Shown: piece by piece, positions 49,853-53,104 of the stretch
How the letters are laid out: each line of letters starts with the position of its first letter
Numbering within the stretch: the first letter of the stretch is position 1
Translations under genes and position numbers: made by a program
Notes under the pieces: model-generated
What the model was told of the DNA's origin: nothing
Database searches by the model: none
What the model saw: only the letters and a program-made list of their open reading frames with translations
Source of the DNA: Thermodesulfobium acidiphilum
GTDB taxonomy: Bacteria > Thermodesulfobiota > Thermodesulfobiia > Thermodesulfobiales > Thermodesulfobiaceae
Direction: 5' to 3'
Assembly (NCBI RefSeq): GCF_003057965.1
Contig: NZ_CP020921.1
Location: 684,501 to 748,500, forward strand
Length of the DNA stretch: 64,000 nucleotides

Positions 49853-50054
49853 TTAAAAACCTCCACCTGTTTATTTGGTATTTCTTTATACCCGATGGTA
49901 ATAGTCAAATCAATAGATACATGACTTTATTATATTAGAAATTTTATAAAAAGGTAATTTTTTGTAATTAATATAATTTATTGCAGTTATATATATTATA
50001 TAAATAAATGTTTTATATACTTATTTTGGGAAACATAGAGAAAACCGTATTGAC

Positions 50055-50089
50055 AAACTATATATAGTGTGACAAACTATATATAGTTA
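50055..50089. promoter_or_regulatory. Two tandem NrdR-box-like palindromes upstream of nrdD
   Basis: AAACTATATATAGTGT (50055-50070) and AAACTATATATAGTTA (50074-50089) each contain the perfect 10-bp palindrome CTATATATAG, at 50058-50067 and 50077-50086, centred 19 bp apart. They resemble the published NrdR box (ACAC-w-ATATAT-w-GTGT). A TTGACA lies directly at the left edge (50050-50055). Position, 47 bases before the nrdD start codon, suits repression. Confidence 0.75.
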
Positions 50090-50135: not shown

Positions 50136-52412
50136 ATGAAATGTCCTTATTGTGATTCGAACGATTCTAAAGTTATCGACACTCGATTTGTAGAAGAAAG
50201 TGGTGTTATAAGAAGGAAGAGAGAATGCCTTTCTTGTGGGAAGAGGTTTGTTACCCATGAAATTTACGAAGAGGGTTCGAAAAAAAATATAGATAACAAT
50301 TCTGATGAAACTGTAATACTTTCTCCTGAATATGTAAAAAAGAGAGATGGCAGGGTTGTACCATTTGATATCTTTAGAATTGAAAGGGCAATTGCAAAAG
50401 CTTTCAAAGCTGTTGGAGAACACCTTGGTGCAGAAAAGGAATTAGCAGCTAGGGTTTCTAAGAAATTATATCGTCAATATAGAGAACAAGAAGTAGTAGA
50501 TATTGAAAGGATTCAAGACGTTGTAGAAGAGGTCTTGATAGAAAATGGTTTTGCAAAAGTTGCAAAGGCTTATATTCTTTATAGAAGAAAGAGACAGGAA
50601 GCTAGAGAAAATCTTTCTTGTGCTGTGGATATAGAGCACATAATTCAAGACTATCTTCATCAGGAAGATTGGAGAACAAATGAAAACTCTAATACTACAT
50701 ACTCTTATCCGGGTTTAGTTCTTCACGCTGCTGGATCGGTCATGGCACATTATACTTTGAATCGTATTTATCCTGATGAAGTAAAAGATGCTCACGTAAA
50801 CGCAGATATGCATATTCACGATCTGTCCTATGGTATTACAGCTTATTGTGCAGGTTGGTCTCTGGAAGATCTTCTAAGAGAAGGGTTTGGAGGTGTTCCG
50901 GGTAAAGTCGCAGCAGGTCCAGCAAAACATCTCTCTGCTCTTACCGGGCAAATGGTTAATTTTCTTGGTACAATGCAGATGGAATTTGCAGGTGCACAGG
51001 CATTTAATTCTGTAGATACATTTCTTGCACCTTTTGTAAGGGCTGATGATCTGGATTATAAGAATGTAAAACAGATAATTCAGCAGATGGTTTTTGCAAT
51101 GAATGTGCCTTCCAGATGGGGATCTCAACCTCCTTTTATTAACTTTACTTTTGATTGGACTGTTCCAGAAGACATGATGAACAGGCCTGTTATAATAGGA
51201 GGGAAAGAGTGCCCTGAATATGGCACTTACGGCGATTATCAGAAAGAAATGGATATGATAAATAGAGCATACATAGAAGTAATGCTGGAAGGCGATTATG
51301 ATGGAAGAATATTTTCATTCCCAATTCCTACATACAACATTACTAATAACTTTCCCTGGGAAAGCGAGAATACAGATCTATTATTTGATTTAACGGCAAA
51401 ATATGGCGTTCCATATTTTCAAAATTTTATAAACTCTGATCTTAAGCCTTCAGATATTAGAAGCATGTGTTGTAGACTACAGCTAGATCTAAAAGAACTC
51501 AGGAAAAGGTGTGGAGGACTTTTTGGTTCTGGAGATAAAACTGGATCAATAGGTGTAGTAACTATCAATCTGCCTAGGATTGGATATCTTTCTAAGAGCG
51601 AAAGCGAATTTTTTGCAAGACTTGATAAGGTTATGAACCTTGCAAAAACTTCTCTTGAGATAAAGAGAAAGGTAGTGGAAAGAAATCTTAAGAATGGCTT
51701 GTTGCCGTATACCAGAAGATATCTAGGCTCATTTTCTAATCACTTTTCTACAATTGGCCTTGTAGGGATGAATGAAGCTTGCTTAAATTTCTTGGGAGCA
51801 TCTATTGCTACCGAGAAGGGGAAGAGTTTTGCTATCAAAGTTCTAAAACATATGAGAGAAAAATTAGCTAGCTATCAAGAAGAGACTGGTAATTTATATA
51901 ATTTGGAGGCCACTCCTGCAGAAGGAACATCTTATAGACTTGCAAGGCATGACAAGAAAAAATATCCTGATATTATTACCTCAGGAGAAAGTGAACCGTA
52001 TTATACGAATTCAACTCATTTACCGGTAAATTATACAGAAGATCCGTTTGAGGTAATGGATCACCAGGAGGAATTACAAAAGCTTTATACAGGAGGCACA
52101 GTTATTCACACATTTTTGCCAGAGTCTCCTACTCCTGAAGCTGCAAAACAATTTATAAAGAAGGCATTTGAAAATTACTCTTTCCCTTATCTTACGCTTA
52201 CGCCTACCTTTTCTATATGTCCAACCCATGGATATATTGCAGGAGAACACTTTGTTTGTCCAAAGTGCAATCAAGAAACAGAGGTATATTCAAGGGTGGT
52301 AGGGTATTATAGACCTGTAAGGATGTGGAACAAGGGAAAGAAAGAAGAGTTTAGAAATAGAGTAGAGTATGATATTAACAAATATTCTATTCATAGATTG
52401 GTAGTAAGATAA
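50136..52412 (+). CDS. nrdD: Anaerobic ribonucleoside-triphosphate reductase with N-terminal NrdR zinc ribbon
   Basis: A 758-residue class III ribonucleotide reductase, making dNTPs without oxygen by a glycyl radical. Domains in order: a zinc ribbon (1-45) with C3, C6, C31, C34 and IRRKREC, the same spacing and sequence style as the repressor NrdR; an ATP cone (about 66-155, KKRDGRVVPFD); and the catalytic barrel (NADMHIHDLSYG onward). A C-terminal zinc site (CPTHG, CPKC) precedes SRVVGYYRPV, whose Gly723 is the likely radical residue. ATG 50136 has AAGGGGTAGG upstream; a longer frame from 50094 lacks one. The zinc ribbon is not a normal part of NrdD. nrdG follows after two bases, and NrdR-box-like repeats lie upstream. 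Confidence 0.94.
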   Translation: MKCPYCDSNDSKVIDTRFVEESGVIRRKRECLSCGKRFVTHEIYEEGSKKNIDNNSDETVILSPEYVKKRDGRVVPFDIFRIERAIAKAFKAVGEHLGAEKELAARVSKKLYRQYREQEVVDIERIQDVVEEVLIENGFAKVAKAYILYRRKRQEARENLSCAVDIEHIIQDYLHQEDWRTNENSNTTYSYPGLVLHAAGSVMAHYTLNRIYPDEVKDAHVNADMHIHDLSYGITAYCAGWSLEDLLREGFGGVPGKVAAGPAKHLSALTGQMVNFLGTMQMEFAGAQAFNSVDTFLAPFVRADDLDYKNVKQIIQQMVFAMNVPSRWGSQPPFINFTFDWTVPEDMMNRPVIIGGKECPEYGTYGDYQKEMDMINRAYIEVMLEGDYDGRIFSFPIPTYNITNNFPWESENTDLLFDLTAKYGVPYFQNFINSDLKPSDIRSMCCRLQLDLKELRKRCGGLFGSGDKTGSIGVVTINLPRIGYLSKSESEFFARLDKVMNLAKTSLEIKRKVVERNLKNGLLPYTRRYLGSFSNHFSTIGLVGMNEACLNFLGASIATEKGKSFAIKVLKHMREKLASYQEETGNLYNLEATPAEGTSYRLARHDKKKYPDIITSGESEPYYTNSTHLPVNYTEDPFEVMDHQEELQKLYTGGTVIHTFLPESPTPEAAKQFIKKAFENYSFPYLTLTPTFSICPTHGYIAGEHFVCPKCNQETEVYSRVVGYYRPVRMWNKGKKEEFRNRVEYDINKYSIHRLVVR

Positions 52413-52414
52413 AT

Positions 52415-53104
52415 TTGTTTAAAGGGTGGATTAAACTCTCTTTTATAGATTATCCTGATAAGCTTTCTACTGTTCTTTTTACTGAAGGCTGTAACTTTAG
52501 ATGTCCATATTGTCATAATTTTGATCTTGTTTTGCCCAACAACTTAGAGGTTATTAACATTGAAAAAATTCTAAATTTTCTTGAAAAAAGAAAAAGAAAA
52601 ATAGATGCAGTGGTTATATCTGGTGGAGAGCCCTTCCTACACGGTAAAGAATTAGAGGATTTTGTAAAGAAAGCTAGGATAATGGATTTTTTAATTAAAA
52701 TTGATACAAATGGTTCTTTTCCTGAAAAGGTTTTTGATTGGGACAGAAGAGGTCTGGTGGATTTTTGGGCAGTTGATTTTAAGGTACCATTTGAAAAATA
52801 TGATTTGGTACAGGGGAATGGAGAAAAAACGAAAATTACCATTCGTTATCTATTAGAAAAGGATACTCCCTCAACTTATGAACTTCGCACTACGATTTTT
52901 CCAAGATTTCATAGTATTGAAGTTTTAACGAAGATGCTATTTGAGATTGAAGGAGCTACTATGTGGTATTGGCAAAATTTTAGAAATGACAGAACGCTTG
53001 ATGAAAGTGCGGCTTTGGTTGAGCCTTATAGCAAAGACTTATTGAACGAGTGGAAAAGTAGATTGGATGTATTTAAAAAAGTTGGCAAGATTATAATTAG
53101 ATAG
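52415..53104 (+). CDS. nrdG: Anaerobic ribonucleotide reductase activating radical-SAM enzyme
   Basis: A 229-residue radical-SAM activase that installs the glycyl radical on NrdD. The cluster motif is CNFRCPYC (C26, C30, C33); SGGEPFLHG follows and an IDTNGSFPE region sits in the barrel. It starts at TTG 52415, two bases after the nrdD stop, so translation is coupled. It is longer than E. coli NrdG (154) and belongs to the longer activase branch found in many anaerobes. Confidence 0.9.
   Translation: MFKGWIKLSFIDYPDKLSTVLFTEGCNFRCPYCHNFDLVLPNNLEVINIEKILNFLEKRKRKIDAVVISGGEPFLHGKELEDFVKKARIMDFLIKIDTNGSFPEKVFDWDRRGLVDFWAVDFKVPFEKYDLVQGNGEKTKITIRYLLEKDTPSTYELRTTIFPRFHSIEVLTKMLFEIEGATMWYWQNFRNDRTLDESAALVEPYSKDLLNEWKSRLDVFKKVGKIIIR

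Follow-up and report, generated by a model that had tools for sequence, protein, structure and literature searches.

A class III ribonucleotide reductase fused to an NrdR-type zinc ribbon in Thermodesulfobium, and its possible role as its own repressor

Can a ribonucleotide reductase be the repressor of its own gene? NrdR and ribonucleotide reductases read the same dATP/ATP signal each through its own copy of one type of domain, the ATP cone, and dATP bound in the cone of class III reductases inhibits the enzyme. Metabolic enzymes with a DNA-binding domain that represses genes of their own pathway include PutA, BirA and NadR; to our knowledge, none of these is a ribonucleotide reductase and none has an NrdR ribbon, and their fold and pathway are unrelated to those considered here. 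The question is raised by a 64,000 nt stretch of the Thermodesulfobium acidiphilum genome (contig NZ_CP020921.1, positions 684,501 to 748,500; hereafter, the window), for which an earlier note had proposed that the anaerobic reductase NrdD begins with the DNA-binding zinc ribbon of NrdR. As far as sequence can tell, the idea of an enzyme that carries its own regulator is supported: the ribbon is rare among NrdDs, there is no separate NrdR, and the upstream boxes are conserved. We consider it likely that the reductase represses transcription of its own gene, and that dATP bound in the enzyme's cone probably gates this activity.

An NrdR ribbon and an NrdD cone in the only reductase of the genome

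The nrdD fusion ORF starts at an ATG at position 50136 that is preceded by AGAAGGGG, and its stop codon ends at position 52412 (Table 1). The cysteines at residues 3, 6, 31 and 34 and the IRRKREC motif, from which the earlier note recognized the ribbon, are present in the first 45 residues of the protein. Indeed, the Pfam model for the NrdR ribbon (PF22811; cut-off 27.2 bits) matches residues 1-42 with 63.8 bits in the full protein, and matches residues 1-45 alone with 71.2 bits (E 6.6e-20). The assignment of the remainder to an ATP cone followed by a full class III reductase also holds: the Pfam cone model covers residues 66-155 (80 bits); the NRDD domain (PF13597) covers residues 183-745 (646 bits, above the curated cut-off); the NCBIfam models PRK08270 (class III ribonucleoside triphosphate reductase) and TIGR02487 score 1102 and 559 bits; and in a search of PDB sequences, the catalytic part aligns with class III reductases, 8p23 among them. 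A glycyl-radical motif (RVVGY, residues 720-724) and a C-terminal Cys-rich site (C695, C708 and C711) complete the protein. As in other class III NrdDs, the cone, NRDD and glycyl-radical parts are all complete and nrdG is the neighbouring gene; unlike its class III relatives, which usually begin at the cone, the fused protein has a 45-residue ribbon and a linker of about 19 residues ahead of it.

Table 1. Features of the nrdDG locus, in window coordinates
Feature	Position	Strand	Basis or remarks
NrdR box 1 (ACTATATATAGT), just after TTGACA at 50050-50055	50057-50068		Perfect palindrome, kept in 4/4 genus genomes
NrdR box 2 (ACTATATATAGT)	50076-50087		Perfect palindrome, kept in 4/4 genus genomes
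nrdD fusion gene: NrdR zinc ribbon, linker, ATP cone and class III ribonucleotide reductase	50136-52412	+	758 aa; ORF, Pfam, NCBIfam, PDB sequence search
NrdR-type zinc ribbon, residues 1-45	50136-50270	+	PF22811, E 6.6e-20; residue comparison; Foldseek
Linker, residues 46-64	50271-50327	+	Residues 47-59 predicted disordered; relaxed selection
ATP cone, residues 65-156, NrdD type	50328-50603	+	Pfam; alignment; structure alignment
NRDD catalytic part	50604-52409	+	Pfam, NCBIfam; RVVGY 720-724; C695, C708, C711
nrdG, radical-SAM activase (NrdG2 type), directly 3' of the nrdD fusion	52415-53104	+	TIGR02495, 162 bits (cut-off 131)

The resemblance to NrdR is confined to the N-terminus. Residues 1-55 match Escherichia coli NrdR in the search of PDB sequences (E 2.5e-9), and the NCBIfam model for NrdR (TIGR00244) likewise aligns with residues 1-55 only, scoring 49.2 bits against a cut-off of 124.65. 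Modelled with AlphaFold2 (pLDDT 83.9), residues 1-166 form a three-stranded ribbon, a disordered stretch at residues 47-59 and a cone; the full-length model is of moderate confidence (pLDDT 63). A comparison of such an N-terminal model with NrdR, as the earlier note had proposed, placed NrdR structures in the first 13 ranks of a Foldseek search. By contrast, the cone alone is closest in a structure alignment to 9d3x, a class III reductase (Z 15.3, 2.6 A over 104 residues), has AKAYILYR where the NrdR cone has YVRFASVY, and aligns with NrdD cones. The alignments divide the NrdR-like N-terminus of the earlier note, with a ribbon that comes from NrdR and a cone that is the reductase's own, of the NrdD type; the NrdR cone is gone. 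Since the fused cone is not of the NrdR type, the ATP/dATP switching known for NrdR is not simply transferable to it.

The genome is a single contig of 1,774,794 bases that is 99.99% complete, and it has one match to PF22811, one ATP cone and one match to NRDD, all three in the fusion protein. A search for class I or II catalytic subunits (PF02867) gave no match in this genome. The fusion protein thus accounts for both the one reductase found in the genome and its one NrdR-type ribbon, and the profile search for a separate NrdR, proposed as a check on the regulatory role, found none in this complete sequence; hence, there is no other NrdR protein to read the boxes. We also found no in-frame start codon in the linker of the window copy, and none between ribbon and cone that is conserved; the fusion gene should thus not give rise to an enzyme without the ribbon. 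Elsewhere in the window, the minus strand between 45948 and 47283 has ORFs that, on reading of the sequence alone, resemble the hydrogenase maturation genes hypD and hypC.

Paired boxes with an altered spacing

The repeats upstream of nrdD, named in the earlier note as a possible target of the ribbon, proved to be two perfect ACTATATATAGT palindromes, which end 67 bases (box 1) and 48 bases (box 2) before the ATG and are conserved across the genus: both are perfect in all four genomes, in a flanking upstream sequence that drifts. Perfect box cores occur at five places genome-wide, and the three outside this locus are single and inside long ORFs. Allowing one mismatch gives 51 sites genome-wide, versus 45 with a reversed control, so single sites are at the background level; the one-mismatch sites listed include no second pair within 60 bp. 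A promoter scan detected no consensus promoter over the boxes; judging from their position and from the TTGACA just before box 1, we infer that they would overlap the promoter.

The distance between box centres is 19 bp in the window genome and in one other member of the genus (G001), and 29 bp in the remaining two (G002 and G003). The difference of 10 bp is close to one helical turn, but it represents one event and so lends weak support to helical phasing. By contrast, the best or equal-best box pair in the 16 relatives with a separate nrdR is spaced 30-32 bp centre to centre. Published work indicates that NrdR needs 14-17 or 24-27 bp between 16-bp boxes, corresponding to 30-33 or 40-43 bp between centres, and that an E. 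coli NrdR reporter is derepressed with spacers of 13 bp or less, corresponding to 29 bp or less between centres (PMC12051234). Although the box cores are perfect, the arrangement typical of NrdR, paired 16-bp boxes with a spacer of 15-16 bp (about three helical turns), is not found here, and this operator would be a poor fit for an ordinary NrdR tetramer. Because the spacing is unlike that for NrdR, the fusion protein would have to contact the pair in another geometry, or else occupy each box on its own. The operator spacing appears to have changed together with the protein that reads the boxes, and the locus would then be a natural example of an operator changing its spacing along with its reader.

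Probable self-repression and its alternatives

The fused ribbon has C3, C6, C31 and C34, and comparison with 46 stand-alone NrdRs showed that it also keeps D15, R17, R26, R27, R29, R37 and E42. The roles of the residues for DNA recognition and ribbon pairing are taken from studies of NrdR (PMC12176259; PMC9110341): D15 and R17 are base readers in the structure of Streptomyces coelicolor NrdR (PMC9110341), and R27, R29 and E42 join the two ribbons of a pair in the E. coli protein (PMC12176259). Four of the five residues in the DNA-recognition set (D15, R17, R26, R28 and R37) are identical in the fused ribbon; the exception is R28 of the Arg motif (window positions 50217-50219), which is Lys in all the fused proteins and Arg in all 46 stand-alone NrdRs. 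Between species of the genus, the ribbon has a dN/dS of 0.02-0.04, near the values for the cone and the catalytic domain, whereas the linker has values of 0.12-0.37 (relaxed selection in Table 1); the ribbon is under strong purifying selection.

The fusion protein is like NrdR in having the four cysteines and most of the DNA-contact residues in a ribbon followed by an ATP cone, in the paired palindromic boxes before a reductase gene, and in the structures that Foldseek ranks first. It is unlike NrdR in that its ribbon is fused to a reductase with an NrdD-type cone, through a linker of about 19 residues rather than 4-7 (PMC12051234). Along with the cone type, two further differences, R28K and a box spacing of 19 or 29 bp instead of the 30-32 bp in relatives, count against self-repression. 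By its whole-length score, cone type and operator spacing, the protein falls outside the NrdR family; it probably works like NrdR.

We infer from these features that the fusion protein would bind DNA, repress nrdDG and respond to dATP. Every NrdD chain has an NrdR ribbon on a flexible linker before its ATP cone. At high dATP levels, dATP bound in the cone would switch the enzyme off and draw the cones of a dimer, or possibly a tetramer, together; this would pair the ribbons, which would then bind the two palindromic boxes before nrdDG and repress both genes. With ATP, the cones would part, leaving the enzyme active and the promoter free. Movements of this kind are known: in one class III reductase, the two cones of a dimer form a unit with dATP and lie some 40 A from each other with ATP (PMC12662201); dATP favours tetramers in another (PMC11226230); and in NrdR, a ribbon pair binds one box (PMC9110341). 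Here, where the genome has just one reductase, the same cone appears to act in catalysis and in gene control alike. The fusion makes it possible to test directly if the cone of a reductase is able to gate DNA binding, and if the movements of NrdD cones suffice to pair two ribbons. We see an even chance that this is the first known ribonucleotide reductase to be its own dATP-responsive repressor, with one cone per chain setting both catalysis and expression, and with an operator spacing refitted to the quaternary structure of the enzyme rather than to the NrdR tetramer. Among known enzyme-repressor proteins, our literature search turned up no ribonucleotide reductase.

An alternative possibility, which we regard as unlikely, is that the ribbon represses nrdDG through the operator according to the amount of protein and not to dATP, as simple autoregulation of the enzyme level. 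With a linker this long and flexible, the ribbons could move independently of the cone; the spacing of the operator has also changed; and NrdD is likely to be far more abundant than a usual repressor. Nonetheless, the ribbon lies directly before the cone, as it does in NrdR, and published NrdD cones move far between their ATP and dATP states (PMC12662201). Ribbon binding that is independent of nucleotide would still leave the protein autoregulating its own level.

It is less probable still that the ribbon does not bind DNA but is a structural or oligomerization element, the boxes being read by an unrelated protein or being mere promoter sequence. Ribbon pairs drive the formation of NrdR tetramers (PMC9110341) and could be kept for assembly alone, and both R28K and an operator spacing unlike that for NrdR would fit such a role. 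However, the ribbon retains the base readers D15 and R17 as well as other contact residues, the boxes have no mismatch in any of the four genomes and are of the same sequence type as those before nrdR-nrdD in relatives, and the genome has no other protein of the NrdR ribbon family. We prefer repression by the reductase itself, probably gated by dATP.

Origin and spread of the fusion

The same 758-aa fusion is present, with no separate NrdR ribbon, in all four genomes of the genus Thermodesulfobium, two of which are single-contig assemblies. An artefact in which a frameshift or an assembly error joined adjacent genes is refuted: nrdR and nrdD do abut in close relatives, but the fusion recurs in four genomes, synonymous change between the two species pairs is near-saturated with low dN, and the absence of the NrdR cone means that this is no read-through of two intact genes.

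Outside the genus, the fusion was not found in about 830 other sampled genomes, consistent with the earlier view that most NrdDs lack the ribbon. With a ribbon-plus-cone query of 386 domain-wide genomes, a single long frame covered residues 1-158 in the four genus members alone; this set samples large phyla thinly, such that independent fusions may occur elsewhere. There was no fusion in 50 Atribacterota genomes, and none in 398 genomes of another phylum, searched with a threshold that a fusion would be expected to exceed. The nearest NrdDs, 33 loci drawn from 84,980 species genomes, include a single fused one (L056), which matches the locus of G002, a member of the genus, in position. No fusion was found in phages or viral contigs, and there was none among the best plasmid matches listed. 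Our literature search, mostly of open-access papers, returned no report of a ribonucleotide reductase fused to an NrdR ribbon.

The nearest NrdDs are those of Atribacterota, which are 76% identical to the fused protein and lack the ribbon; their genomes have, immediately 5' of nrdD, a normal nrdR of about 150-164 codons that either abuts it or overlaps with it. The two genes are arranged likewise in a Synergistota-labelled genome from the sister branch. A tree of the catalytic domain places the fused proteins in a single clade, next to the branch of Atribacterota and Synergistota. Fused residues from about 55 onwards align with the N-terminus of Atribacterota NrdDs, and residues 1-45 align with the ribbon of the relatives' NrdRs, with NrdR's own cone missing. 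The Atribacterota nrdR-nrdD pair (Caldatribacterium and others) has the same components, order and box sequence type as the fusion, but comprises two proteins with two cones, and has boxes 30-32 bp apart. Since the Atribacterota NrdDs lack a ribbon and have nrdR directly upstream, the fusion probably arose from such a pair by deletion of the NrdR cone and the gene junction, with the operator spacing changing alongside.

Several other loci in this comparison have features of their own. In the Atribacterota loci L046, L047, L057-L071 and L077, nrdR is directly before nrdD and paired NrdR boxes are 30-32 bp apart. One NrdD ORF (L048:560-4525, minus strand) is unusually long, at 1321 codons, possibly due to an insertion or extra cones. 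The NrdDs of Aquificaceae and Desulfurella (L073 and L074) group next to the fused clade; in Desulfurella, nrdR is about 2.2 kb before nrdD and not adjacent to it. Lastly, archaeal NrdDs from DHVE2 and Aciduliprofundum (L076, L078-L083 and L085) start without a cone and are about 61% identical to the fused NrdD, which suggests gene transfer across domains.
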